Assembly (NCBI GenBank): GCA_904066235.2
Contig: CAJFCV020000003.1
Coordinates: 7,502,001-7,566,000 of the forward strand
From: Bursaphelenchus xylophilus
Taxonomy: Eukaryota > Nematoda > Chromadorea > Rhabditida > Aphelenchoididae
DNA length: 64,000 nt
Reading direction: 5' to 3'
Shown here: one piece after another, positions 17,436 through 51,440 of the stretch
How the letters are laid out: each line of letters starts with the position of its first letter
How positions within the stretch are numbered: the first letter of the stretch is position 1
The notes under the pieces: generated by a model
What the model was told of the DNA's origin: nothing
Databases searched by the model: none
What the model saw: only the letters and a program-made list of their open reading frames with translations
Translations under genes and position numbers: made by a program

Positions 17436-18027
17436 CAAGGAAAGTACTTTTATGAGGGCTCCTACTTTTTGACGGGACATATCTCAAAAAATCAGAAAAA
17501 ATGTGCTGAACAAGGATATATAAATCCTAGCTGCCCATTTTAGGTTTTTAGGGGTGAAAACTCAATCGGAAGTTGACTTAAAGTCCTATATGAACCCCTT
17601 TTCGCTTAATTTTTCACAGGTTTACAGTTTTTATTTTGGCTTAAAACGATGTTTATTGAGTTTCTAAGACGTAATAAATCAGTCTTGGCACAAAAATTTA
17701 TTTTTCCGGCCGTCATCTTCAAAAAAGTTGATTCAGCCCAAAAGGGAAATCGAACCCGTGCGGCGTTCCCCCTCTTCATTCCCAGACTACGGCACTAACC
17801 ACTCGGCCACACCGCTCTCTTCCGAAGGAAGAGACCGACTGTGCTTTTTATCGTTTCGAATGCCTGCGCCTTTTGTAGGGAAATTAAGCCAGTTTTTGGG
17901 CGTTTTCACCCCTAAAAACCTAAAATGGGCAGCTAAGATTTACATATCCTTGATCAGCACATTTTTTCTGATTTTTTGAGATATGTCCCGTCAAAAAGTA
18001 GGAGCCCCCATAAAAGTACTTTCCTTG
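17436..18027. mobile_element. 592-bp TIR element, family A (PIF/Harbinger-like, non-autonomous)
   Basis: The left end (CAAGGAAAGTACTTTTATG...) and right end (...TAAAAGTACTTTCCTTG) are near-perfect inverted repeats; the match continues for about 140 bp including GACGGGACATATCTC. It is flanked by a direct TTA on both sides (17433-17435, 18028-18030). A 3-bp TWA duplication is characteristic of PIF/Harbinger transposons. It has no transposase frame. It carries a tRNA-like block on the minus strand. A second copy in opposite orientation lies at 32226-34257 with TSD TAA, which independently fixes the ends. Confidence 0.88.
17733..17815 (-). pseudogene. tRNA-Ser/Leu-like sequence inside element A
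   Basis: Read on the minus strand it begins GCGGTGTGGCCGAGTGGTTA, with an A-box of tRNA-Ser type, a long variable region and a B-box GGTTCGATTTCC. The length and variable arm match a type II tRNA. The 3' side (GGGCTG) does not pair with the 5' GCGGTGT, so there is no acceptor stem and it is not a functional tRNA. It could act as an internal Pol III promoter. Confidence 0.7.
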
Positions 18028-19610
18028 TTAAATCCCCTCTGATCCCCTCCTCGATGTTAAATTCTGAAACATGTAGTCTTAAATGCAGACAACATGGAAG
18101 GATTTCACAAATCCGGTTTAACTAAGTTTCTCTGCACCGCACCAAAAAAAGATCTCACATAATCCTGGACACATCAGAAAGTGTAGACAGTGGGTCTAAT
18201 CTTCAAACGTGCAGAGTTGCACGTTAAAGGTCGACGTGGAAAGTTGGAACCATGTTTGGATCCAACCGAGAAAGAGCTTGAGAACTGCGAACCAAATACG
18301 TTTTAATAATAATTGACAATATACGTGTAGACACGTATATCTGGCACCTTCATAGCCTATTTTGTCAGATTCTCCGACAAATGTTCAGCCTCAGCGAGCC
18401 TTATCACAAACAAAATCACATACACCATGAATGGATCGGCTCGCGATTGGAAATTCCGATTTAGAGAGTGAGAATTGGCGTCAGAGCCCGATGAAAGTCC
18501 CGGCTTTTCCTAAACAATGGAACCCTCACCGGATATGCAAATCAACGATTACGAGAACTCGGAAGTCCAATGTTCAAATAAATGTTGGGGAAATTATGAA
18601 AGTCATCCACGTGAAATTAATATGTTGATAAAAGGGCAACCTGGACAAATAGAGCAATAGAAAGATCAAAAATTACAAGCTGGCGGGGAGCATGAAAACC
18701 ACTTCATTGATCGAAGACGACGCTTAATGGGACATCCGTCAAAAAAAGCTATATGTAATACTAAGGTTATTTACCATAAACAAACAAATCGCCGTAGTTA
18801 TGATACATTAGGATTATTGGCCGACCAAAAACAATTACTTAATGTATGTAGCGACTTTTAACAACAAACAACAACAGGAGACGGGTATGTAGATTCTCAT
18901 CTCTGGTCAACCACGGCTTTACAGGGAATTGTAATGTGCATAAAGCGATTACAAGGGTATTCCCAATTTAATAATAAACAACTGCGAAGTCAGAAGGTCG
19001 AAACCGATCAAATCCGGCTCACAATCAGTAATCACATTATAACAAACAAAAATAGAATAAATGTTTTCAGAGGCACCAAACTTTACTATGCGTAGCTGTT
19101 TTTTGAACTCTACAAGTTGTTACATCCCTCACCAAACATATTCGTTTCTTTTGAGAAGACAAAGACAATCTCTTCGGAGCGAAAACATGACTACTCCCTA
19201 CGGAGGTAATTGTAAAAGTTTTGGTGAACATCCAACTCTGTTGAACCGGCATAAATCCGCGAAAAAACTTCAGAGAAGGTCATAAAAAAGTGCACAAAAT
19301 GCACAAAGTTGGCCATAGATATCAGCGTGTACAATCAAAACCCCTTGGAAACAACGGCAGGAGAATGCGATGAACGCCGAGTACCCGCAACCAAGCAGAA
19401 TAATTGGATTAAATGTCGTCAAAAGAAAGGAAGTTGGCCCCTTCGCTGTAAAGTGGGGTTGTTACAAAAGAATCACAAGACCGAGCTTCACATTTTTCGG
19501 TTTCATTTTTTGATAAAAACAAGATAATCACAGTGGAAATGTGCAATTAAACGATCGGTCCCGATTCCAAGTGTATATTATAAGTATAGAGATAAAGTTA
19601 AATAAAAATA
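18028..19610. other. gene desert, no supported feature
   Basis: About 1.6 kb of AT-rich DNA. Frames up to about 75 codons on both strands overlap each other and lack splice context. I see no gene, RNA or element ends. Confidence 0.4.
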
Positions 19611-19979
19611 TGGGGCTAAGGTAGTATAGCCCCCCAGTCCAGTTTAGCCCCCCATAACCCAGTACAACCCTCCTCGTCCATTCTGAACCCCAAAATTTAT
19701 TTCAAAGAATTAATCCAAGTTGTATGGTCCAGCACAAGCCCCCTACGTTTTAAATCAAGCCCCTTACGTTTTAGATCAAGCCCCCTCCGTTTTAGAAAAA
19801 GCCCGCTACGTTTTAGGTCAAGCCCCCTACGTTTTAGATCAAACCCCCAACGTAGTAGATCAAACCCCCACTTACATTTTTTGTATTATTCTAATTTGCT
19901 CATTATGTGGGGTGTGAAACGGGCAAAACAGTGGGGGTTTGAACTACCTTTCGTGGGGGGCTCAACTACCGAAGCCCCA
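19611..19979. repeat. C-rich element with short inverted ends and seven 21-bp tandem units
   Basis: The ends TGGGGCTAAGGTAGT (19611-19625) and ACTACCGAAGCCCCA (19965-19979) are inverted repeats with two mismatches. Between them, units of AAGCCCCCTACGTTTTAGATC start at 19736, 19757, 19778, 19799, 19820, 19841 and 19862, exactly 21 bp apart; the last two change to AAACCCCC. Runs of four to six C recur throughout. No clear target-site duplication. The array is open in one frame (repeat QAPYVLD), but this follows from a 21-bp unit and is not evidence of a protein. Confidence 0.75.
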
Positions 19980-20924
19980 AAAATATATGTAATTACATAG
20001 AGAAATGTGTAATGTAGAACACTGTCAAAAGCAACAACAACGTTTAGTGAGCATTTTATTCCGGCTGACTAATACCGCTTGAAGTAAATGTGTAAATGCA
20101 TTCCGCCTCAAGGTAAATCGCGTTCCAGAAATTTGAGAACAGTTGAACTCCAATGACAACTGAGTCACACGACCCAATAAAAGGATTGTTACAATATTTT
20201 TAAATTCCGAAATAACGTCCTATTTAGAGTAAAATCACTGTAAAGAACCCATTTCAATTCGCAGAAAACAACTTGCACTTAAAACTTCTTACAGCGAAAG
20301 CCAAGAAGGCAGAGATTCCTGTCGCCTGTTCTTAAACATCTTCATCATTCCTAGTAAGTGACAATTAACCCTAAACGCTTTTTTCAGCGCCGATTTAAAA
20401 ATTTGATTCATGTTTAAAGCGGTAGATGTAAAGTAATGCTTTCCGCGACAAACACGCCTGCATTTCCGATTGGTTGCTTGGGTTTCGACGACGATTACTG
20501 TCAAAATGATGGAAATACACGAATAACCCGGGACTAACGCCGTTCCTTCGATTAGAGCATTGTTCAAAACAAGTTTTTTTATCCGAGAAATGAAGCAATT
20601 GAACACTGGAATGTTTCCGACTGTAAGTGACATATAATTACATGTTTAAGCAAACACAAAGACTAAATATAAAAGACGATATGTGATAAAAAATCTGTAT
20701 TGGAAATACAATACATATTTTCTGTCAATGTGTCGCTAAATACTCACAACAAGAAGACATCATGTATCGGACAATTTTCCATTAACAGTAATATTAGATA
20801 TAATAGATATGATGACACGGTTCATCCTTGAGCTTTGTTTTTTTACATGATTACTTCTTCAAGAAATTGTTTTTTATTTGTTGGTATGCACATCCGACAA
20901 ATTTCGGCCTAACGCGCCACAATT
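19980..20924. other. gene desert, no supported feature
   Basis: A 114-codon minus-strand frame (20289-20633) contains two hydrophobic stretches but no family signature I recognise and no exon partners. Otherwise AT-rich and featureless. Confidence 0.35.
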
Positions 20925-21081
20925 ATCGAGGCCCGAAGACCTCAAACGCAAAAATTTAGCTGTTGACGAACCCCGACTCGGAGCTGTCACACAGGTCAAC
21001 CGTCCCCAAAGTGCAATGGGAGGGTCTCACTGTGGAGTCGGCACCTTCTTGATCGTGCCGCACCCCCAGCCAAGTAAGTTT
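20925..21081 (-). ncRNA. U1 spliceosomal snRNA
   Basis: On the minus strand the RNA starts AAACTTACTTGGCTGGGGG (5' splice-site recognition, cf. U1 ACUUACCUGGC). Stem-loop I is CGGCAC-GATCAAGAAG-GTGCCG, with the exact U1-70K-binding loop. Stem-loop II carries CCATTGCACTTTGG, the U1A-binding loop. An Sm site AAATTTTTGCG (20947-20957) is followed by a 3' stem-loop GAGGTC-TTCG-GGCCTC (20928-20943). Length about 157 nt, near the family norm. The base after ACUUAC is U instead of C. The reverse-strand open frame here is only a shadow. The 3' end is approximate. This is the one confident gene inside the desert. Confidence 0.94.
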
Positions 21082-22235
21082 ATGAGACAACCACGAGTAG
21101 AAAGGGTGAGAAAAACGGATCGGAAAAGAAATGGGACCCTTTTCGAGCGAGAGAGAAGAGACATTTTTTATGTGCGAGAGAGCGAAAGAAGAACGCCCTT
21201 TTATCGGGAGAAAAGAGCAAATAGAGAAAATCATAGAAAGGGAACGGCTAAACCATCTGGAATTGAATAGTTTACAATAAAAAGGGATTGTTTTGTATTC
21301 TTCGTACAACTAGTGTAGTCTGGTTGTACATGTTGCCATGGAAACACAAAAATTTACGATCAAGGCAAAGCTAAAATTTGCTGTAGATTAAACGCGTTTA
21401 AAACGTGTTTAAACGACTACAGGGCGCGGTGAATTTGGATCCCAATATGAAATGGCTATAACTTTTTTAGGTTTTGGCCCAATGCCAGATTTTTTTTCAG
21501 AATCTACAAAATCAGCATTTTTAAATATTTATAATGAAAAATAAACGCGTGATACTTGACTAAAAATACCAATTTAACTATGTATTAAATATACACCCAC
21601 TTAGGGATATTTTCATGTTGGATATGGAGTTTTGGAGTAAATTGAACTAGGACAAAAAATTAAAAACTGCATGCAGAAATAAACAAAGAATAGTGGAAAA
21701 AACAATCTAATACAAATTTTTGCTACTCTAAATCTACTGAAAATTGAGTCTAGAGATCCGTCAAGTCAGTGAATTTGTTGTTATCTACTGCCGACATCAA
21801 AACAGCACCTCCAGCTCACCCAAAAGGACAACCCCCAAAACCTATTTTTACTTGACAAATTTCTCCGAGAAAAGACGAAATCTGATATTTTTAAAAATCA
21901 CCCAAGGAAGGTCATCAACGTCATCCCCTTCATGCAACCTTTTCACAAGCGTATACTTTACCGGCTTCTACCCGACAATCACTATAAGATCAGTCTAAGC
22001 CTGCACGAATTTATAATAAAAAAAAAAGAGTGGGATATAAAATTACGCAACATGTAATTTACCGTATGAAAAGCACTCAAATCACCCAATCAACCGCTTA
22101 TCACTCGCAAAACCGTCGGACCCAACTAGACGCGTGGTATACCAAAAGAATGTCATATAACATAAAGGATCCTAAAAAAAAATAAATGGAGAAAATTGCG
22201 CCGCAAGCTGAATGAATTGGAGCTTATAAAATGGC

Positions 22236-22274
22236 ACTGGCAGAGATACTAATTTTACTAGTATCTCTGCCAGT
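22236..22274. repeat. perfect 16-bp inverted repeat with 7-nt loop
   Basis: The arms ACTGGCAGAGATACTA and TAGTATCTCTGCCAGT are exact reverse complements around the loop ATTTTAC. The stem is shorter than a normal miRNA precursor and pairing hardly extends beyond it. It may be a remnant of a small foldback element. Confidence 0.8.
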
Positions 22275-22903
22275 CCCTTCATAGCCAAAGTTATAAAAAA
22301 AGGTTAATTAGTAAGTTTTGCAATAAATCCCTGGAATTAAAAAGCAAAACTCGCATCGGGCGTGGGTCGCCGGAAGTTGTAGCGTCCGAAATACGCCAAA
22401 TCGTCTCTGAATGACGTTTATAACATCTCTAATCGGGCTCAAATAAGCCCAGTTCTGCTTCAGCATTCAATGAATTTGGCTTTGTAAAACCCTGATAAAG
22501 GTGAGATATTATAGTGGCACGTCATAAAGGAAAAAATTTCACTTCCAAAAGTTAGAGAATAATAGGATTTTCTAGAGAGAAGCGGCTTAGTGAAAGAGAT
22601 GTAATATTACAATCGTTATTGCAGCATTGTTTATAAAGCCGAAATTATTTATCACTAAAATACCTAGAGGTTTAATAAATCTGGCAACATCTTTTTTTAG
22701 ATTAAAAATCCTAGGTCTTCTGGGCGGCATACATGTATTCTTAGCCGAACGAAATTCTTTTCCATCTAATTAACTAACGGAACTTTCCCCATTCTTATCC
22801 AATTTTCTTACATAGAATATCCTTATTAGAAAAGTACACGTATCCAAAAGTCATTTCATTGAGGCGACTACAACACACATGCATATAAAGGTTTCAGTAA
22901 TAA

Positions 22904-22932
22904 TTTACAGTAATTAGAGTAATTACTGTAAA
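22904..22932. repeat. perfect 13-bp inverted repeat with 3-nt spacer
   Basis: TTTACAGTAATTA, spacer GAG, TAATTACTGTAAA. AT-rich near-palindrome; role unknown. Confidence 0.75.
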
Positions 22933-23296
22933 AATAAAAGGGCAAAGATATTAGCTTCGCCCCTGTCCGCCGAGACCGATTCCCCGCCTTGTTTATGAGA
23001 CTGCAGAGACTTTCACGCTTCATGGCCAAAAACAGGTTGCTCAAGCACACTATTAAAAAGGCCAACTAGTTTAACCCTCACAAGGGCTCGGCAAAACCTC
23101 GTCCCCTGGTTTCTTCTTGAAACATATACCATTTGAAAGAGCGCAAAAAACTGGTCTAGGATCACCTTTAATTAGCTGCTAAGATTCACTTACGTGCTAG
23201 CTAGCGAACTTTTTTTCAAAATTCTCAATTAGACTTTGGGAACCTTTTCTTCTGAGACGCCAACGAGATCGAATAATCACTTTTCATACAAATATT

Positions 23297-23715
23297 CAGA
23301 CATGGCAAAAGGGGCCGGGCCGGGGGACCCCCGGGCCCCAGGCCCGGCCCCCGAAAAGTTGGGCCCGGCCCGGCCCTTTTCAAAATTTTCAAAGCCCGGC
23401 CCGGCCCGGCCCCGGGGCACCTTCGGCCCGGCCCGGCCCGGCCCTGAGGGGTCTTACGGCCCGGCCCGGCCCGGCCCTGAAAGGTCCTAAAGCCCGGCCC
23501 GGCCCGGCCCTTTTTTTCATTACTCTAAATTTTGCATTTTAATTGCTATTTTTTTGTTTTATGATGTTACCACGAAGTTTTCGGTGTCTTACTTGATACA
23601 AACGGCCAGCGGTTTCGATATAGGACCAATAATGATGAATAATTGGAGAATTTTTATCCAGATGTCATGAAGGGTCGGGCCGGGCCGGGCCGGCCCGGCC
23701 CCCCTGCCATGTCTG
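23297..23715. mobile_element. 419-bp GC-rich hAT-type MITE nested in family B
   Basis: Ends CAGACATGGCA and TGCCATGTCTG are inverted. An exact 8-bp duplication CAAATATT flanks it (23289-23296 and 23716-23723), the hAT signature. The interior is built of GGCCCGGCCC repeats near both ends, far more GC-rich than the surroundings, with about 140 bp of AT-rich DNA between them. Confidence 0.9.
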
Positions 23716-24126
23716 CAAATATTAGTCACCTATGACATTGGACGCTTCAATCAAAATCAAAGAACATAAATTTTTTTCTGAGCTTGAAACTCTCAGGTCG
23801 ATGCCCTCAACGAGTGATTAGGCGATGTTTTAGGTCTTGTAACCCGAGACATACTAGGAGGTTTCAAACATGTATACCGTTTTCAGGCTCGTTTTTCACG
23901 TACTGTCCGTAAACGGGCATTCCTGGCAAAAAATATTAAAGCCGTTGAAAGTTTCAACCATCTTGGATGCCCACTGCAGGGTCAAAGACACCTATATCAA
24001 AAAAAAAATTAAAAACCTGTCGATTTTTCTAGTAAAACTAATCTAGGGTACCCTAAAAATCAATTTAAAATTAAAGACTACATGCTAGCCTTCTTCATTC
24101 CATAATAGCCAAAAAAATCCAAAAAT

Positions 24127-24196
24127 TCAAAGGAGGATTCGAACCTGGTCCGCAGGTCCTCCTTGTAGAGCGCCTTACCCCACTAGGCCACCGAGC
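24127..24196 (-). pseudogene. tRNA-like sequence inside family B element
   Basis: Read on the minus strand: GCTCGGTGGCCTAGTGGGGT (A-box region) and, further on, a perfect B-box GGTTCGAATCC. Overall length is about 70. The T-stem and acceptor stem do not pair, so this is a tRNA-derived relic or Pol III promoter, not a working tRNA. Confidence 0.6.
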
Positions 24197-24403
24197 ACTG
24201 CTCCGCTGTGCTTTTGAAATCGATCGCTTTTGTTTTCTTGAAAGAAGGGTGAGGCTGGCTTAGAACTAAAAAATGCTCGCTAGCTAGTGTGTAGGATAAT
24301 CTTAGCAGCTAATTATAGGTGATCCTAGACCAGTTTTTTGCGCTCTTTCAAATGGTATATGTTTCAAGAAGAAACCAGGGGACGAGGTTTTGCCGAGCCC
24401 TTG

Positions 24404-27400
24404 TCAGATCTTCCAATTGTCTGTAAACGTACCATTTAAATCCTTAAAACGTGCGAAATCACAAATTGGGACAGTCTCAACGGAATAGAGATGGCTAAGC
24501 CGGGTTAAAGACGCGGAACCCACCGTCCTTTCTAGACATATATGTAATCCAGGTTGCACTCCCAGGGAATCATCATTTCGACCATGAATCTCGGCTTCCG
24601 GAGTGTTTCGCAAGCCGGATCCGGGAACAAGGAGACCTGTATGTAAATACCAGTTCTCTACTCAAGAATAGAAAGGAACCCACGCAGAAACCAATTACAC
24701 TTTAGAGATGCCCCCAAGACGTTCACACTTCGAACTCCCTAATCCCGAAACAAATGTCATAAACAAAAACTCCGCCTTATATACAAGTGTTAGCACGCGT
24801 GTTGTGCGAACGGTAAACAATTGACAAAACAATTCACATCTCCACTCTAACAGTTTCTTTTTCGCCTACGTGACCCTTTCTAAAACCAAAGAAAACAATT
24901 TTTATTTCCCCCGGTCCAAGCACTGAAGTCACTTGACCACCCAAGCCCCCCCCCCCCCATCAAGAATTCGTCATCATAATCGATTGTGGAAAGATTTCCG
25001 GCTGTCGGAATGTGTCACTCCCATTGGTCATGTCATAAAAAAAAGTCGAAACAACAGTTCGATCCAGAAGTCAAGTCGTTCGACCGATGGCAAGATCATG
25101 AGATTTTTTCTCAAAACTTGTAGCCTTAACAGACATGTTAAAATAAAGCTTTGCTTATAAGGCTCCATCATCATTATGTATGCCATTGAAAGATCAGTCC
25201 ATAGCACAGAAACAGCATACTTGGCTAACAAGAGTGAAGGAATATATTACATAAGCCTTCAGCGGTTCATTGGGAAGCAAACCGGAGAGTTTACTTCTTC
25301 GCGTTTTTTTCTTATGTAGGGTTTGAACGCGGGTATGAATACACCCTGGTGTACGCTCGGGTATATATCCAAATTCCTGTGAGGCGGGTACTTATCTCTT
25401 CAAACTTATACTTATTGCTTCCCCTTACAGATTGAAACTTTTGACATTGTCAAATCGTCAAGTTCCCCTTCGAATATTTACTTTTTCATTTTTCGTTCAT
25501 TTCGTCAGAAATTGAATAAAAAAAGGGAGTAAAATGAAATTTCCGAGAATCCTTGCTTCAATTGCCAAAAAATAAAAATAACTCAAAAACGTGGAAAAGC
25601 GTAGAAGAAAAAGTCAAATTGTGGGTGCATCTTGGGTACGAGTCGCGAACTATTTATATAATCCAAATGCGAGGAGTCCAAGAAAGGGAGGCATGAGAAA
25701 ACCTGATTAATTCAGGGACTTTTCTTATTACCCAGTGAATGGAATAATCATCCTACCGTAAGCCTGTGTTTCGGAACAATAAAATGATAAATTCGGAAAC
25801 ACTTGGCGCCACATGCACCTAGAAATTTGGCTTGAAGGCGTTGATTGATAAGCCGTCAAGTGTCCCATTCCCGGCTTCAAAACAAAGAAAAAACTTTCCT
25901 TCAAGACTTGGCCGTCGTTCAAAACGCAATCAAAAGCCGAAGACAGGCAAGAATATATAGAACAAAGAATGCCCCCCTTTTCATTTTTCACAAGGCCAAG
26001 TAAACAGCCGGTACATCAAAAACAAAATGTTTCGATTCATACCCGAGTTCAAAAAAGACGTTTCAGGGTCAGGTGCACCCTGGCCGTGAGCCAAGACGAC
26101 AGGCTAAAGGTCGAGTTGTGGAGACGGGGGAGGGCGTTTCCTTCGATTTGAACGAAAACAACTCTGTTTGTGTATGAACTCAAAAAATATGACTTCGTTC
26201 TTATCACTCTCAAAAACGTTCTAATCAACATCCTAGTTACACTCAAAAATCACGAGTATTATAGAATAATCCCCCGGGGGAAACCAATAGATAAATTCAG
26301 TCAGGAAATCCAAGACATTAACTGTCATTCAAATCGGGATTCTCAGAAACGCGTCTGCACAAACATAAAAAATGTAAAAGGTGAGTGTTTGCTTAAGCCA
26401 TTTTTAAAAATCAAATTAAAATTGGGATTGACTTTCCAGATCATAGGGCATCCGGAAATGCATCAAACACCATACTACTCACTTTCCGGTCTGTGTGGCA
26501 TATTAGGGATGATAAGGGTCATAAAACGGCATCTGAAAAAAAACATACTTCAACATTATAGACTGTGATTTTATTAGTTAAACGCATAAAGATATACACA
26601 CAAATATCATTAATGTTTCGCGGGGCACACAACTGAGCTTTCTATTGAAATTGCTTTACACATCATGATTTTTCCTTGGACATAGGTTTATAATCAAATT
26701 CTGATCCTGCTCGAGCAAATCGTAAGACTTCCAGTTTGAATAGACTTATTTTTAGAAATTTCAAAAGCCGTGAGTTCAACGATTTGAACTTTTCTACTAA
26801 AGCCTCAGATATATCATTAAATATGTGTGAATACATTTTGGGACAAGTGTAACCTCTTTTTCAAACATAAACTTCTGCGTAAGCCCTTGACTGCCAACTA
26901 TTAGAAATAGTATCTCATTAGTCGTCTCGAGAGAAAAGAAAGGCAAATAAGACGAAGATGGCCAAATATATCATGCAAAACACAAGCCAATTACTTCTGC
27001 CCTAATACTTTTAGAAAATACGTACTTGCACGTATGCACTTCCCGCCTTCTCCAGTGTTCCCCACAGTCCTGAAAATGTTTTCCCCAATTCGGCCAAAAA
27101 CTGACAGCCACAACAATCCTGCCTCGGGAAAAAGGTAGCTTGCATAAAAAAGCAATAGAGTAGTCGAATAATTACCGATAGAACATCTCATTAAGAACTC
27201 ATTACAAGCTCGGGAGAGCCCTGGCCACGTACAAAGCCAGGTACGGAAGCCGAGACTGCCACATTAAAAGGTAGCAAGTAGAATACAAATGTAAGCGAAA
27301 ACGATGAAAGTGAAAGAAAAAAAGTTTCAATATGGGATGCAGCCATGACTTCTCACGTCATTGGTGTTCAAGTGTATTTGCATTCAACGAAACTACTCTC

Positions 27401-30400
27401 AAAACTAATAGAAAACTGCAAACTATTGGGTAAAATTATTAAAAAAACTCAATCCTAACCATGACACAAAAATAATCTCAGAATTTCCACTAATAAATAA
27501 AGTAATTCTATATTACTAAGAAGATGATAATCCTCATCGGTCCAATCGTTCCTTCGTCTCGTAAACAAAAGTTTCCTTTTTATGGATGTTTCGAACTCGA
27601 AAACATTTTTTTACCGATAACGAAGTAATAAAAAACTCCGATATCACGATATCTGTCGAACAAAAAAAGGAAAGTTCCACTGAAGCGAAAGTAAAAAAGA
27701 CACTTACGAACGTAAGAAAACGAAGGAACAGCAAGTAGATTGCTATGTAACAATTAATGGAGGGCGGCGCTTAATCGGACCGAATGACATCAAATGTAAA
27801 ATCATAAATAGTACAAAGAATAAGGCGACTTAAAACAGTCCCGTCAAGAGTCGTAAACAGCCTTGGGCCTTTGGAATCCTTTTTCCACAATCAGGCTGCC
27901 ATTACTTCCGTTCTTCTCTTTCTCTGATTGCCCGAGTCTTCCGGTCAATATTGGGCCACATTCTACGGTCTCGTGCTTACATTGCCGCAAAAAATAACCA
28001 AACTTTGTAATTCTCTTGCATCGAGAACGGAGAGTAAACAACTTGCGGGCTGCCCGAAAAAGTTTCTAATAGTTCAAACGTGCCCCCACTTTCTGTTGCC
28101 TTCGTTCACCCCCCCCCCTCCCTTCGGCCCGCAATTTTTTGGAGCCGTAAAATTATTTGCTTTACTTGGGTGTCAAAAAAAGCGACTTCCCTTGGCTTGT
28201 GGGGATCTCCCGTATTCCCTTCCTATTTAACGAAGGAAAGAACCGAGGGTGATATCAAGGAAAGACGTGAAAATGCGGGCTCGGGAAATTCTCATTGGAA
28301 GGTGTTATCGCGCCTTGCGGCTTGTTTCGTTGCGTCTTTTTTCTCTGCATGTCTGCCGTCTCCGCTCCCTTTGTGTTATATTTTTGTGGATGTCCGGGGG
28401 TTCTTTTTCTGCCCGCGGGCTCTGACGTGGGACCATGACAGATTTTTTAAGCAGATCTAATTATAATTTATGCCCTCAATAGAAGTGAAATCCTAGTCTG
28501 GCTTTTAAAGACTCATGCTTACACTGCCGACTTGATTACATCGCTAATTACCGGTGATAAGACGCTTTTATAACAATAAATACATCTTATCAAGCGGAAC
28601 AACTTGCTGTAAACATTCCGCCCTCATCCTCCCGATAAATTGTATAATAGTACATATGTCGGCTATTTGAAAACTGCGTCACAAATCCTTCGCACTTCAA
28701 GCCTACTACCGTAATTTTCGCTTCGAAGTAGCCCCGCTCACGCAAAATTTTCCGCCTCTTTTCACAGGGGAAACACAAACTTGGTTGGATTGGAAAGCGT
28801 GCGGCCTGGGCCCCCATGGCACACCGCTTCCGTTCGCGGGGAATCCCTTCCCTCTACTACGCAAAAAACACGTTTCAGAGTGTTTTCCCCCAGCGCCCAA
28901 CGTTTCAAACTAGGTCATCAACCCAATAGATAAACCTCAAATACATGCCTGTAAACAGGCATTCCTGTTGTACTCAAAGATAAAAAGATCTATTATAGCA
29001 TTGGACCGTAGGGATTAGGCAAGAGATTGATGAGGTAAGGAAGGAAATGACATGCCCGGAGACAAGGAATTAGGTGGAAACATCGATAAAGATCAAAGTG
29101 TTGTTTGTCCGTCTGAAATTGCATCGGATTAGCATCAAGCCTAATAAACGATAGAAGTTTAGTGGCCCAACCCGTTTTTAAACAAGCTTAGCGGGTACCA
29201 AATGAACAATTGCACTCCGAAAGTAATGAGAATGTCCTTACATACGACTTTATGTTTAAAAAATCCCCTTCTCCTTGCTTCTCTTTTCTTCCTTTGATCT
29301 CGTTTTCTCATCAGCGAGGCTGCCAAAAAAATTCAACGCAAAATAAAAGTGCATTTGAGAAAAAGAAGAGGAGAAAAAAAGTGTGCATATAAAAAGGCCT
29401 TCAGAGCGAAGGCTCGTTCGGGTCTCTCCTTGGTGAGATTGGGGGACCTTCAAAATGTCACGTTTCAGATCCAATTTTTAAGAGGAACGCTAATAAAAGG
29501 GTGAGGCCAACAAATACAATTACTCATCCCTGACAATTAGCTTTACAACAATTTGATTGTCCTCAACTGCTTTCTCTCCAACTACGGACTATCGAGAAAA
29601 GTCCGAAAGAGAGGGAAATGTTACGCAAGGCAACCTCCGACCCACCAGGATGTACCTTTACACATTTTTTTTAGAAAGAAACTCCGAAGACAGGCTGACT
29701 GAAAATTCAATGAATTCATTAGGACTCAAATGGAACTCAAACAGAATAATAAAAGACATTGTGTACGTGCGTATTTCCGACAAATGACATTATTTTTATT
29801 TTCGTGGCCAAGGCTAAAGGCCAAGTATGTGTCGAACTCTCGGACTCAAACAAAAAAGACGTAAAAGAGGTTATAAATGGTGCACACATTATGCGATAGA
29901 TAACGCCCTTAAATTAGATCAAAACATGTCGTTTTTTCATACTAAACAGAAGAAACCCGTCATAAACAAACTTTAAGATGCCGTGGAACACCTCCAAGGG
30001 CAAACACAAACATCTATACCTTGTGTTTACACTTTCTTTTTCGGAAATTATCCTTCGACCACAAACGTAATTACGTAATTTAAAAAAATATCCAAATAAA
30101 CAAAAAAAGATATGTTGAAACTATGGCCATGGCCAATTCCGACACCCCCCCCCCCCTTCTTCATTCAGCCGAAATTGTTTTTCACACATCTGGCATGTGA
30201 TTAAAATAAAATAAAAGTGCCCACGAACAACTGCATAAATAATAAAAATGATTTCTATTAGCCATCATATCATAAATATCGGGCAGAAAAAAACTGTTTT
30301 TGAAACAGCTGCATTAAGCCCGACACTTATCAAGCAGGTACCGGGACATTAAGGCGAATGGGAAACGAATGCACTTTTAACACTGAAACCTCTTTGGAAC

Positions 30401-32225
30401 CAGGCCATTTCTTAATAGAAAAAGTCCAGGGAAGAAAACTACTCAGAGTTCAGAAGAGCAATTTGAAGAATAATTGTACACAACGTTAAAGTAAATATAC
30501 ATAAGTCAGGGGGCTCAGTAGAGCAAGAACAAACTTTGACACTTTATCACTCGCAAATCAGATTACGTTTCATACGATCCCAGAGCTCCCAGAATGCCAC
30601 TTAACCTTTTTGTGGATCGCAATCACAGAGAGAAACATTTTTTCGAAAGCAGATTGAAGAGTAAGATTACAGATAATGCAAACCTCAAAAAAGGGGAAAC
30701 CCCAAGTCTAACAATAAGCTGTTCTTTTATTAATGGCTCTGTTTACCCAGAAGGTAAGTAATGTTTGAGGGTTTGTTATGTAATTCGTTTCCATTTTAAT
30801 TACGTGGATATAAACTGAAAATAAGATAAGCAAAGTAATGGCTTCTGGTGTTCCGATCTGATGGAGGTGGTGCTTGCTGGGGATGCTCGAGAGAAAAGGG
30901 TTTTCCGAGTAAGCAAATTATAAAAGTTGCAGGTAAAAATAGCAGCAAGAACCAATGTTGGCATCATTGACTGTTACGTCGACAAAGATAATCCTAGAGA
31001 GTAACCATTGAAATGCAACCCCACAAAATATCCAGAAAACAGCATAAACTCAATAGCACAGACATTCCGAGAAACAATCGCTTTAGGGCATAAGAACTGG
31101 AACGAGAAAAAGATAAAACACTGACAAAAAAAAACTCCCGGAAGCATTTTGGGCATAGCCCCAAAAACGCTGCCCTTAGGCACGCTTTTGCCTTTGTCGG
31201 CGCTCTTTTTCTCGAACGTCAAATGTTCTCGCCTGAGCAAAGTTGAGGAACGTTTTGGCACGGCGATTTCAGAGATTTGAGAATGAAGGCATGTCCTAAA
31301 AGCGGCAGGCGTACTTTGAACTGAAGCAGTAAAGTTTCATTATCCACGGCCGAAGAAACTGTGATAGCGCATTTAAAATTAAACTCACAATCAGTCTTTT
31401 TCATATCGAATACAGGAATACCCCCCGGTCCTAATCTAGTTTTTCCGATGTGAAAGGACAAACAAGGAAATGACATAAAGACATTCGTTAAGACAAATCC
31501 CAAAACAGAGTCGTCTTCGGACGGAATGTCTTCAAATTCCCCCAATTCTGAGAAACGTTCCTCATAGCGAATTCCGCGAATAAGGGTCGATTGAAATAAA
31601 ATTAAACCAGTGGGGTCAGGCGGAAGGGAAATGGGACAGACAGTAACCTATAATACAAAGTAAGGCATTCGTTGACATAAAGTTTAACTTGTCGTAACAA
31701 ATTCAGAAGTGAATTTAGTATCCAAGCATCCGACATCTAATTTTAACAAACCTCGGCTCAACTCCTTTTCATTTATCTTACAAATCAAGGGAAAGGTTAT
31801 ATATATTCCTTGTTTTTCATAAACAATATCCCCTTCCATCCCGATAAAATATACTTCCTCAAAAACATCTCCCTTCTATTACATGTGACATTCCTGTCGG
31901 CGGCATTAGGACATGGATGGGGGAAGAGAAAGGGCAAATTAAATTTCGTTAGACTTTGATGATACTCCCAACTTGAAAATGTTCTTCCGCACGTACATCC
32001 ACCAATATATTTTTAAAGGGGTGAAAAACAACAAGTTAATCAAGAGGTAACTTCGTCATAGGCATTTGGTTATCATAAAGTTACAACTTGTTTCTGTTCT
32101 TAAAAATCAATAGTGACATTTCGTAGCGAATTTTATTGAGTTTTCGAGAGAATTTTGAGAAAATTTCTGAACAAAATTGTTTCAATTTCTGATAAATTGT
32201 ATAGGGGAGAAGAGGGTTGATATAA
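24404..32225. other. 7.8-kb gene desert
   Basis: No coding region, RNA gene or bounded element that I can support. Frames of up to 132 codons (for example 26170-26568 +, 31219-31545 -) show ordinary AT-rich composition and no motifs. Poly-C runs of ten or more occur near 24948, 28108 and 30145. A short near-palindrome TGCCTGTAAACAGGCA lies near 28946, and a similar GTAAACGGGCATTCCTGG near 23909 may be repeat remnants. Confidence 0.4.
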
Positions 32226-32435
32226 CAAGGAAAGTACTTTTATGGGGGCTCCTACTTTTTGACGGGACATATCTCAAAAAATCAGAAAAAATGCGCTGAT
32301 CAAGGATATATAAATCTTAGCTGCCCATTTTAGGTTTTTAAGGGTGAAAATGCCCAAAAACTGGTTTAATTTCCCTACAAAAGGCCGACATTCGAAACGA
32401 TAAAAAGAGCACTCGATCTCTTCCTTCGGAAGAGA

Positions 32436-32516
32436 GCGGTGTGGCCGAGTGGTTAGTGCCGTAGTCTGGGAATCAAGAGGGGGACGCCGCACAGGTTCGA
32501 TTTCCCTTTTGGGCTG
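32436..32516 (+). pseudogene. tRNA-Ser/Leu-like sequence inside element A copy 2
   Basis: Begins GCGGTGTGGCCGAGTGGTTA and contains the B-box GGTTCGATTTCC. It is nearly identical to the block at 17733-17815 apart from a few substitutions and a one- to two-base difference in the variable region. No acceptor stem. Conservation between copies of the A- and B-box parts is visible by eye. Confidence 0.7.
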
Positions 32517-32993
32517 AATCAACTTTTTTGAAGTTGAAGGTCGGAAAAATAAATTTTTGGGCCAAGACTGTCTTATTACGTCTTAGAAACTCAATAAACA
32601 CCATTTTAAGCCAAAATAAAAATTGTAAACCTTTGAAAAAATTAAGCGAAAAGGGGTTCATATAGGACTTTAAAGTACGCGCGTCCCGAAGCCTAGGAAT
32701 ACACTTGGCCATATAAAAACTTTGTCGCGTCGGGACTATAAAACTTTGAATTACCCGCGAAAAAGAAATTTTTTCGCGGAATATTATTTTTTAGGCTGGA
32801 GCCGGAAAAAGGTGTTGATTTTGTGGTTTTTGATGTAATTTTTATGTTTTTTTCGTGAAAACGTTGTTCTTTGTCGTAAATGCGTTTTCGTTTTGTTGTC
32901 GGACTGTTTTTTAGCTCGAGTATCACCTCTGGCGATTTATTTTTCTTGTAATTTGACTTTTTTTATAGTTTTGAGGTTGATTCGCTTTTCGGT

Positions 32994-33260
32994 GAGAATT
33001 TGAATGGATTCCTCAGCTACGAACGAGATGTTTCCAGAGACCACATCCAAGAAGCCACAGAAATAAGACTAAAGACGGCTCCATGGTATTGGGAACGAAT
33101 CCGGACCAATTACTGGTAGGTGGAGAGTTTTGAATGTTTTTACTTATGTTTCTTTCGTTGAATGAGGGAAATGCTTCAGGTACCGCCTTAAAAACGGCAG
33201 GATTGAGATGGACCAGTGTGCATCCATGAGACAGCCCCGTTCGTTCCTGTTGTTGGAAAG
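32994..33260 (+). pseudogene. exon-like sequence in the left half of the nested element
   Basis: An open stretch 32994-33115 (ENLNGFLSYERDVSRD...) ends in a GT donor (TACTG|gtaggt). After a 64-bp intron-like gap, an acceptor at 33179 starts YRLKNGRIEMDQCASM..., ending at a second donor near 33260. It is homologous by eye to the inverted minus-strand copy at 33706-33870, but relative frameshifts separate their later reading frames. Source family not recognised. Probably a decayed captured or element-encoded exon. Confidence 0.4.
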
Positions 33261-33534
33261 GTGCGCATCAAGGCGATTTGATTTTTGAATTAGAGTTACG
33301 ACAAATGGGCGGGACAAGGAGAATGTTGCAATAACAAATAAATACATGTGGATAGTGGCCTAAACCCCCCAAGTGTTGGCCGATTTTCCACGACATGATC
33401 AGTACCAGAAGTTTATCAAATTGGCTCTTGTCCCCACAATATTCGAGAGTTTGTTTTACTTTTTCTTTATTGTCGTTTTCCAACAAGTAAAAATAAAGAA
33501 GTTATGTACACATCGAGAAAGAATTTATCGTTCT

Positions 33535-33870
33535 TCAATCAGTTTCTAGGAAAGAATTCAAGCGAAATCGAGGTTGGGAAGTTGATTGACGTGTTCCACG
33601 CTTCCTGGCCGCCTCCATTCTCGTGTTTCTATAACCTCGATCCGGATGCGGGCCACCTCCTTCAAGTCGGTACTAAACAAACATATTTATGAATAATTGG
33701 CTTACATGACCATGTTCAACCTCCAGTAATTGTTCTAGATTCGTTTCCGATCCCATGGAGCCGGCTTTAGTTCTTCGTTTCTGAGGATTCTGGGATTTGG
33801 GACCTCTGGAAACATCTCGTTCGTATCTCAACAATCCATTCCGATTTTCTCTCCAAAGGTATTAACCGGC
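33535..33870 (-). pseudogene. exon-like sequence in the right half of the nested element
   Basis: On the minus strand 33870-33706 is open from just after a TAA, reading WRENRNGLLRYERDVSRG... with many basic residues, to a donor CAT|gtaagc. An acceptor at 33673 restarts in phase with YRLEGGGPHPDRGYRNTR..., which ends at TGA 33535-33537. It shares YERDVSR and nucleotide words such as GGCTCCATGG with the left half. No start codon close by and no family recognised. Confidence 0.4.
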
Positions 33871-34283
33871 CTAAAAAGGTACAACATCGAAACTAAAACA
33901 CACATTTATAACAAAAAACAACTTTTTCACGAAAAGAACGTAAAAATTACATCAAAAACCACAAAATCAACACCTTTTTCCGGCTCCAGCCTAAAAAATA
34001 ATATTCCGCGAAAAAATTTCTTTTTCGCGGGTAATTCAAAGTTTTATAGTCCCGACGCGACAAAGTTTTTATATGGCCAAGTGTATTCCTAGGCTTCGGG
34101 ACGCGCGTACTTTAAGTCAACTTCCGACTGAGTTTTCACCCCTAAAAACCTAAAATGGGCAGCTAAGATCTATATATTCTTGATCAGCACATTTTTTCTG
34201 ATTTTTTGAGATATGTCCCGTCAAAAAGTAGGAGCCCCCATAAAAGTACTTTCCTTGTAAAATTTAACTATCAACTCGGAAAG

Positions 34284-39187: not shown

Positions 39188-40287
39188 TTAGGTCAATATT
39201 CTGTCGTAGTCGAACATGTACCGAAGGATTGCAACAAACTTTCTTGCCTGCAAATTAGTTTTCGAAATTATTACTTTAAGTAAACCAAGATTGTAAAATA
39301 AAATTGTCCATACTTGAGGTTGATCTTCGTCTGGTAAACTGAAAATTAGCCCTCTTGTGATGACCCTCACTTCTCCGACTCTTCTCTTGTGCCGAAGCTC
39401 TTGAATATGACCTTTCTGATCCATGGTCATTGCTTGAACAGCTCTGATCAAGCTCTCAGGAGGACCGTAGTCTTGGAGTAATTGTAATGCTCGGGACCTG
39501 GTCTAAACACAATGTACGTGGTTTAGGACTGGGTGAATCACCTCATCGTCCAACTTGAAAACATGAGCGTATACAAGATCTAGCACAGAGCTCAAATCAA
39601 TGACATTGGCATATTCCGAGATTTGGCGAACCTCTGTCTTTGTAAAATTTAGTTTCTGAATTACACAAATGGCAGTATTCACATCGCTGGGGTCTAAAAA
39701 AGACTATATGTCGTCGTTCGGTAGATTCTAACCTATCATGTACGAATCCTCGATCCCGCACATAGATCCTGATACTCTTTCCACTTTTACAAGGCGCCCA
39801 TTATTCATTGACATTACAGTTTTCGGAAAATGGTCAGCTATCTCGTCCGTTTCTCTGGGTTCATCCTTTTGACGTGTTTGCACATTTGTGAAGTAAGTGT
39901 AACTTGATGGCCCACTAAAAATAATCATTCAAAAAATTGTTAAAAGCAAAATAGATTTTCGACCACGGCAGGATTCGAACCTACAATCTTCGGTTCCGTA
40001 GACCGACGCGTTATCCATTGCGCCACGCGGCCACATTTCGGCCCTTTTTTAAAAAGGTTTTGGGAAATTTCGCGAAAGATAAGAATCGATTCTCACCTTG
40101 AAAAGCGCGGCAAAACGCGATTTTCGTCGTTTTCCTTTGATAAATGGAACAATTTTGGATGAAATTCCGGCAGTGGAGGTAGAGTGAATACTGGCGCCTT
40201 GGGAAATGGATCTGGAACTAGCTGGGACGCGCCAAAACAAGTAAGAATTTGCCAAAAACCGAGAGAAAGTCTCCAATTCTTCAGCAT
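39188..40287 (-). CDS. unrecognised protein with hydrophobic N-terminus; hosts an intronic tRNA
   Basis: Five exons on the minus strand: 40287-40097, 39914-39733, 39693-39542, 39502-39314, 39247-39188; 774 nt, 257 aa. The N-terminus (MLKNWRLSLGFWQILTCFGA) has a basic start and a hydrophobic core, compatible with a signal peptide or a mitochondrial presequence; a proline-rich stretch follows. The C-terminal half is helical-looking and charged (QKLNFTKTEVRQISEYANVI; LLQDYGPPESLIRAVQA; ends MFDYDRILT). I recognise no family. Consistent phases across four introns and clean GT-AG sites argue it is real. Intron 1 contains tRNA-Arg on the same strand. It is divergent from IFT56, with 553 bp between the two start codons. 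Confidence 0.75.
39960..40032 (-). tRNA. tRNA-Arg (anticodon ACG), inside an intron
   Basis: A 73-nt cloverleaf. The 5' half GGCCGCGTGGCGCAATGGAT contains the A-box. The anticodon stem TCGGT/ACCGA closes the loop CTACGGA, anticodon ACG. The T-arm GTAGG-TTCGAAT-CCTGC contains the B-box. The acceptor GGCCGCG pairs with CGTGGTC, allowing two G-U pairs. Discriminator base G, no intron. It sits wholly within intron 1 (39915-40096) of the minus-strand gene, sense to it. Confidence 0.95.
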
Positions 40288-51010: not shown

Positions 51011-51440
51011 CAGGGGTGGTCAGTGGGCCGGGCCGGCCCAAACGGGCCGGCCGGGCTCAAAAATGGAAAATTACAAACGGGCCGGGCCCGTCACGGGTCG
51101 GGCCGGGCCGCGGGCCTGGGATTTTTTCCGGCCCGGCCCGGCCCGTCTAAATTACAATGCCAAACCGTTGGCATTCATTGTTTTCGCGCCGGGAAAATTA
51201 ATTGATGTTGTTATAGTTGCTGTTTCTCAAGTTCTAAAACGTTTACAAGTCTATAGTTCCATTATAAAACCACAAAACTATCACAGTGATCCTTTACTAG
51301 CTATGTCAACGCCTTTTTTGCCTAAGTTTAGATCCCAAGCTTGGGCGCAGTTCGCAGAACCCTCTATAAACGGGCCTGGAAAAAGACTAGACGGGCCGCG
51401 GGCCGAAAATCGGAAAAATAGGGTCCGCTGACCACCCCTG
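51011..51440. mobile_element. 430-bp hAT-type MITE
   Basis: The ends CAGGGGTGGTCAGTGGGCC and GGGTCCGCTGACCACCCCTG are imperfect inverted repeats of hAT type. An exact 8-bp duplication ACGGTAAG flanks it (51003-51010, 51441-51448). As in the MITE at 23297, both sub-terminal regions are built of GGGCCGGGCC and the centre is AT-rich. No transposase frame. Confidence 0.93.

Follow-up and report, generated by a model that had tools for sequence, protein, structure and literature searches.

A tRNA-derived block in Tc4-like inverted-repeat transposons of Bursaphelenchus xylophilus: a candidate docking site for TFIIIC

Why would DNA transposons carry, and keep, the internal promoter boxes of a tRNA gene? 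The question is raised by a 64,000-nucleotide stretch of the genome of the nematode Bursaphelenchus xylophilus (the window; C3:7502001-7566000, in a genome of 78.25 Mb and 8 contigs), in which three elements with terminal inverted repeats (TIRs), two copies of a family A (A1 and A2) and one of a family B, each enclose a tRNA-like block with the A and B boxes recognized by the RNA polymerase III (Pol III) machinery. A preliminary description of the window had taken them for non-autonomous DNA transposons that repeatedly acquire Pol III promoters, a kind of hybrid between short interspersed elements (SINEs) and miniature inverted-repeat transposable elements (MITEs). Our analysis supports that interpretation in part: the three elements were confirmed at their positions and with their target-site duplications (TSDs; Table 1), and the arrangement, a real TIR element of one target-site type with an A/B-box block, was extended to two further families (C and D), a block being present also in a partial relative (E) and in a foldback repeat (F), while neither repeated acquisition nor a SINE/MITE hybrid is established. 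We argue, with a probability of roughly 0.55, that these are non-autonomous Tc4-type transposons whose tRNA-derived block is a predicted docking site for the transcription factor TFIIIC, helping them to spread.

Results

Families A and B have CAAGG ends, duplicate a target of the form T-N-A (TNA) and insert at YTNAR or CTNAG, and therefore look like non-autonomous inverted-repeat transposons, MITEs of the Tc4 group. The inverted repeats of A1, A2 and B measure 131-140 nt and are 93-95% complementary, and in the window's list of open reading frames (ORFs) none of at least 150 amino acids overlaps any of the three; the elements are short (lengths of about 592, 904, 784 and 588 bp), with TIRs, a TSD and no transposase frame, as MITEs are. 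Both ends were available for 57 distinct A insertions, and in 56 of these the T-N-A duplication is perfect, divided into 16 TTA, 16 TAA, 12 TCA and 12 TGA; the context Y-TNA-R holds at 55 of the 56, the base before TNA being T in 41, C in 14 and A in 1. A PIF/Harbinger-type TWA target was rejected, TCA and TGA being as usual as expected (24 of the 56). TNA duplications also flank all six fetched B copies, one C copy and one D copy, and the target is C-TNA-G in five of the six fetched B copies and in the B copy of the window (6/7). The families share ends and TNA duplications from A to D, and the ends of unrelated superfamilies that might have broken up the grouping of the preliminary description were not seen.

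In the accessible text of PMC11071193, Tc4 of Caenorhabditis elegans and of tardigrades has the target CTNAG, of which the central TNA is duplicated. Family B shows the same target and duplication; family A differs in favouring T over C before the TNA. CAAGG is also the terminus of Tc5, and a foldback habit marks Tc4/Tc5 elements, the Tc4 paper calling Tc4 fold-back in its title. We know of no tRNA-like block in Tc4/Tc5; literature searches turned up none in these elements, nor any open-access paper describing, by title or abstract, MITEs with Pol III promoters like these.

Both families are dispersed through the genome. A perfect 27-base A end occurs 252 times in forward and 244 times in reverse orientation, against 0 for its backward control. 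Contig C1 holds 99 A ends and 39 paired copies, of which 33 are 585-605 bp long and the other six 156, 483, 568, 2109, 2389 and 2578 bp. Mean divergence of family A is 2.4% over 66 copies, and its many copies are one recent burst that counts as one event. One A copy is nested in a B copy (G000:C1:4695825-4697315), and two are fused head to tail (L018:1501-2639, 1139 bp). For B, 32 places match both ends among 40 scored of 233 candidates, and 30 of these 32 recur in a search with the block (40 scored of 64 candidates).

A scan for CAAG...CTTG with a TNA duplication, ignoring the boxes, was run over the window and L001-L090 (355,610 bases, overlaps counted twice); it returned families A, B and C only, each with a block, and nothing in three shuffled controls, although it was not exhaustive, missing family D, one end of which reads CCTCG. 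Family C (L010:2109-2892, 784 bp, TGA duplication) has TIRs of 248-250 bp with a block inside each, both facing inward, and is spanned by 38 of 40 scored copies (114 candidates). Family D (L024, 588 bp, TAA duplication), found through its boxes, is spanned by 39 of 40 scored copies, a first look at 1042 candidates that may include A copies. E (L087) is a partial relative whose left end resembles that of A but is degenerate; no right end was found at L087, and E is left out of the tally of complete-element families. Families A, D and E are mutually related. F (L067:2331-3101 and L070) is a foldback repeat whose arms each contain a block of another type, facing inward, a layout that resembles that of C. 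elegans inverted repeats; two inverted arms occur at 17 loci (40 pieces scored of 281 candidates), and in C1:2744046-2745620 and C1:5289553-5291127 inward-facing box motifs in the two arms are separated by 907 bp. We do not count F as Tc4-type. Four blocks of yet other kinds appear among the printed genome matches to the box motif.

That motif, running from A box to B box, has 802 genome matches (410+392), against 10 (8+2) for the pattern read backwards; the 802 include real tRNA genes, to which string rules assign 14 of the 36 printed matches. The A box is perfect in all three window blocks, and the B box matches perfectly in B and departs from GGTTCGANTCC by one base in A; with both boxes present, the blocks have the box content of an extra-TFIIIC (ETC) site. 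Where the listed box matches cover C1, the strict motif is kept by 23 of 24 paired A copies, the exception being the 156-bp copy, so that the preliminary description's worry, that most copies might lack the block, does not apply. The boxes lie 43-54 bp apart, within the range of tRNA genes.

As a tRNA, however, the block scores nothing. On the window, ARAGORN called a single tRNA, a tRNA-Arg at 39959-40033, and no block, and at E<=10 cmscan gave no tRNA match for the block of A1 or that of B; tRNA genes were rejected on this absence of a cloverleaf score as the identity of the window blocks, in keeping with the earlier statement that the block cannot fold as a tRNA. A genome search with RF00005, which listed 55 high-scoring tRNAs (63 scored of 6207 candidates), has no bearing on the blocks. 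The types first proposed, Ser/Leu in A and another in B, stand as a likeness by eye only: the block of A and D looks Ser-like, and that of B is undecided.

The layout recurs from family to family. The A box starts 214-219 bp from an element end in the window copies (Table 1), 196 bp in both arms of C, 206 bp in D and about 183 bp in E, where the end is uncertain; most B copies have it at 214 or 215 bp and one at 191, and in a 603-bp A copy it lies 10 bp further in. In all A-E copies read, the block faces inward. A and B have no alignable sequence, nor have B and C, and A and C share 19 bp at the A box only; under random placement, B and C would both fall within 25 bp of A's offset, and in its direction, with a probability near 0.060 x 0.070, a rough estimate in which the lineages are treated as independent. 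Repeated acquisition, as first proposed, is nonetheless unproven, because A is one event, A, D and E are related, and the offset and direction shared by A/D/E, B and C might just as well go back to an old layout common to them all. A short inverted repeat, seen by eye, adjoins the A box on its upstream side in A and D (TCTCTTCC TTC GGAAGAGA), and some B subfamilies have one of different sequence (CCGAAGC AGT GCTTCGG, by eye in L097 and L098).

In A1, A2, B and D, and in both arms of C, the B-box region is followed, 9-26 bp on, by the start of a run of five T (T5). Between the boxes, the A, B and D copies read have at most T3 and no T4, as do most of the real tRNA genes seen; family C has T5 or T6 there in both L010 arms, and T5 in five of five printed C-type matches. 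An internal T5-T6 should stop Pol III. Pol III transcription is possible in A, B and D, to judge by these sequences, and a whole Pol III transcript from C is unlikely, because of the T5-T6 between its boxes.

What the block has lost and what it has kept can be told apart: from box identity, from the identity of the A and D blocks and from the want of a tRNA score, we conclude that the boxes persist and the fold of a tRNA does not. In seven B copies, chosen for spread across subfamilies from about 32, the A box and the B box are each 97.4% identical, against 78.6% between them and an interior mean of 81.1%, and two random interior windows equal the boxes in 0.07% of draws (permutation p 0.0007). 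For A, 36 copies not picked by their block (L061-L090, picked by block likeness, were excluded) have changed sites at 11 of 792 positions in the boxes (1.4%) against 353 of 11459 in the other interior (3.1%; Fisher p 0.005), with 5.3% between the boxes; 14 copies picked by TIR end alone give a Fisher p of 0.013. A and D are 91% identical over 57 bp spanning the A box and the upstream hairpin, as against 69% and 67% for their TIRs, and the remainder is unalignable. The boxes thus evolve more slowly than the rest of the interior, a comparison for which the preliminary description had called, clearly in B and more weakly in A, and intact boxes near an element end in several families suggest a kept docking site for a host transcription factor.

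Several observations weigh against such a site. The youth of family A, a single burst, means that block retention there shows little, and permuting windows in A gives no significant result (p is 0.10 with the 36 copies, 0.08 with the 14 chosen by their TIR end only and 0.06 with all 66). Only seven B copies, chosen for spread, stand behind the B box test, and identity in B is also high, at 89%, over the 75 bp that precede the A box, so that nearness to the end could explain part of the conservation. T5 lies within 45 bp of 42% of random positions in these AT-rich elements, which weakens the T-run evidence, and in E the T5 run comes only 78 bp after the B box. A genome profile search gave one weak match to PF03184 (26.6 bits) and seven to PF03221 (HTH_Tnp_Tc5), and no autonomous partner was tied to ends of the A-D type.

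Youth, window permutations and the conserved upstream interior of B would all suit the best surviving alternative, in which one ancestral element, or a few, captured a piece of a tRNA that has since been copied along without function, the boxes seeming conserved through sampling or nearness to a conserved end; in a young burst, retention is expected without selection. We regard such a passenger as possible, if a good deal less probable than a docking site: it sits poorly with the gap between the boxes of B and the stretch between them (97% against 79%), with identity between A and D that is higher at the block than in the TIRs, and with an offset and inward direction common to A, B and C, whose TIRs are unrelated.

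A second alternative gives the function to the Pol III transcript itself, for instance as a short structured RNA acting on silencing or on host translation. The T5 runs that A, B, C and D have no more than 26 bp after the B-box region would fit it, as would the lack of T4 between the boxes of the A, B and D blocks read, and the available portion of PMC8457455 offers a precedent in the putative C. elegans SINE CELE45, which is expressed and for which a supplementary figure plots Pol III chromatin immunoprecipitation (ChIP) signal at copies. Yet a functional RNA would hardly be expected to leave the stretch between the boxes unconserved (79% in B; in A, 5.3% changed sites against 3.1%) or the tRNA fold unkept, and family C keeps its boxes despite an internal T run, which favours TFIIIC binding over RNA as the common function; we consider the transcript an unlikely answer.

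Less likely again is a role in transposition itself, with the block as an internal cis element to which the transposase or a helper binds and whose resemblance to Pol III boxes is inherited without TFIIIC. A fixed offset and direction near one end (near both in C) is what such an element might show, but the bases kept are the Pol III boxes, the box spacing varies over 43-54 bp within the tRNA-gene range, and in A, B and D only one end has a block near it.

The SINE/MITE hybrid of the preliminary description, whether a SINE inserted in a MITE or an element moved by retroposition, has in its favour the tRNA-like promoter and a SINE/tRNA-Deu-I listed for B. xylophilus in the accessible part of PMC11118728 (perhaps such blocks misfiled), but it is scarcely credible and was rejected: where retroposition would leave a 3' tail, variable longer duplications and no TIRs, we find TIRs with 3-bp TNA duplications, at 56 of 57 A insertions, which indicate a transposase, and around the block no tail or duplication of its own is visible in the A, B, C and D copies read. 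tRNA-derived SINEs such as CELE45 are alike in their internal A and B boxes and many dispersed copies; the nematode elements described here differ in having TIRs and short duplications of a fixed motif, which imply transposase rather than reverse transcription. The same survey of plant-parasitic nematodes, in its available text, puts DNA elements at 6.34% and SINEs at 0.43% in B. xylophilus, and reports SINE/tRNA-Deu-I in this species only among those surveyed (PMC11118728); part of that class may be such transposon blocks, misfiled.

Two of the window elements are interrupted: A2 is long because a TTAA-flanked inverted-repeat element is nested in it, and B because of a nested CAG...CTG element, the best-scoring other B copies matching window B at 1-216 and 636-1323 as two abutting pieces. 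The insert in B is hAT-like by structure (CAG...CTG with an 8-bp duplication). That in A2, with 219-nt arms at 96% and an inner 55-nt arm pair at 80%, we take to be possibly a Kolobok- or piggyBac-like non-autonomous element. Elsewhere in the window, G+C-rich GGCCCGGCCC repeats lie at 51025-51115 as well as in the CAG...CTG element of B (23297-23715); a 21-bp tandem repeat, CAAGCCCCCTACGTTTTAGAT, runs for 6.4 copies at 19735-19869, and since similar units adjoin an A end in L032 the repeat is dispersed; a U1 spliceosomal RNA gene occupies 20925-21081 on the minus strand (102.9 bits), and a 773-aa ORF is an ETS-domain gene whose closest protein match, at 93% identity over 86% of the query, is from B. 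xylophilus.

Table 1. Transposon copies of families A and B in the window, their promoter boxes and the elements nested in them (strand is that of the tRNA-like block; a point marks elements given without strand)
Feature	Position	Strand	Remarks
Family A copy A1	17436-18027	-	uninterrupted, 592 bp, TSD TTA
A1 A box, TGGCCGAGTGG	17799-17809	-	start 219 bp from right end
A1 B box, GGTTCGATTTC	17746-17756	-	one base off GGTTCGANTCC
Family A copy A2	32226-34257	+	2032 bp, TSD TAA, nested element inside
A2 A box	32442-32452	+	start 217 bp from left end
A2 B box	32494-32504	+	
Family B copy	23081-24403	-	1323 bp, TIR about 136-140 bp, TSD TCA, nested element inside
B A box, TGGCCTAGTGG	24180-24190	-	start 214 bp from right end
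B B box, GGTTCGAATCC	24135-24145	-	perfect
Nested inverted-repeat element in A2	32674-34111	.	TTAA on both sides (32670-32673, 34112-34115), arms about 219 nt; by eye and repeat search
Nested CAG...CTG G+C-rich element in B	23297-23715	.	8-bp duplication CAAATATT (23289-23296, 23716-23723); by eye

Discussion

If the block is a docking site, TFIIIC would bind its A and B boxes and, once bound, would keep the DNA of the element open or hold it in a favourable nuclear position; the transposase might then find the element more easily, or the element might be less silenced, and master copies with good boxes would leave more progeny. In A, B and D, transcription by Pol III may come after the binding, which is itself the likelier common function.

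The nearest parallel, which would work alike if TFIIIC binds here, is the set of extra-TFIIIC sites of C. elegans. The accessible text of PMC6950938 counts 504 such sites that have Box A and Box B but lack Pol III, places 214 of the 504 in CeRep3 repeats, which had earlier been suspected to be tRNA pseudogenes, and describes the sites as skewed to one arm of each autosome. CeRep3 and the B. xylophilus elements are alike in being many-copy repeats with both boxes and the look of tRNA pseudogenes; they differ in that TFIIIC binding without Pol III was measured in C. elegans, whereas in B. xylophilus it is predicted from the boxes. Copies of family A are themselves unevenly placed along C1, only 6 of 60 lying beyond 8.7 Mb of its 15.1 Mb, a skew that may be likened to the one on C. 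elegans autosome arms.

A wider proposal can be put forward tentatively, and with the odds clearly against it: that Tc4-type transposons as a group carry a working TFIIIC-docking module, kept across hundreds of copies and several diverged families, and are a main source of the nematode network of extra-TFIIIC sites, CeRep3 of C. elegans included.

On that proposal, a lineage of DNA transposons would be spreading a site for an architectural factor of its host. Pol III promoters are the mark of SINEs, and cut-and-paste transposons that keep the boxes while the tRNA decays would be another use of Pol III factors by mobile DNA; for annotation, such blocks can be misfiled as SINEs or as pseudogenes of tRNAs. 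Such a group of transposons would also explain where the enigmatic TFIIIC-only sites in the genomes of nematodes come from.

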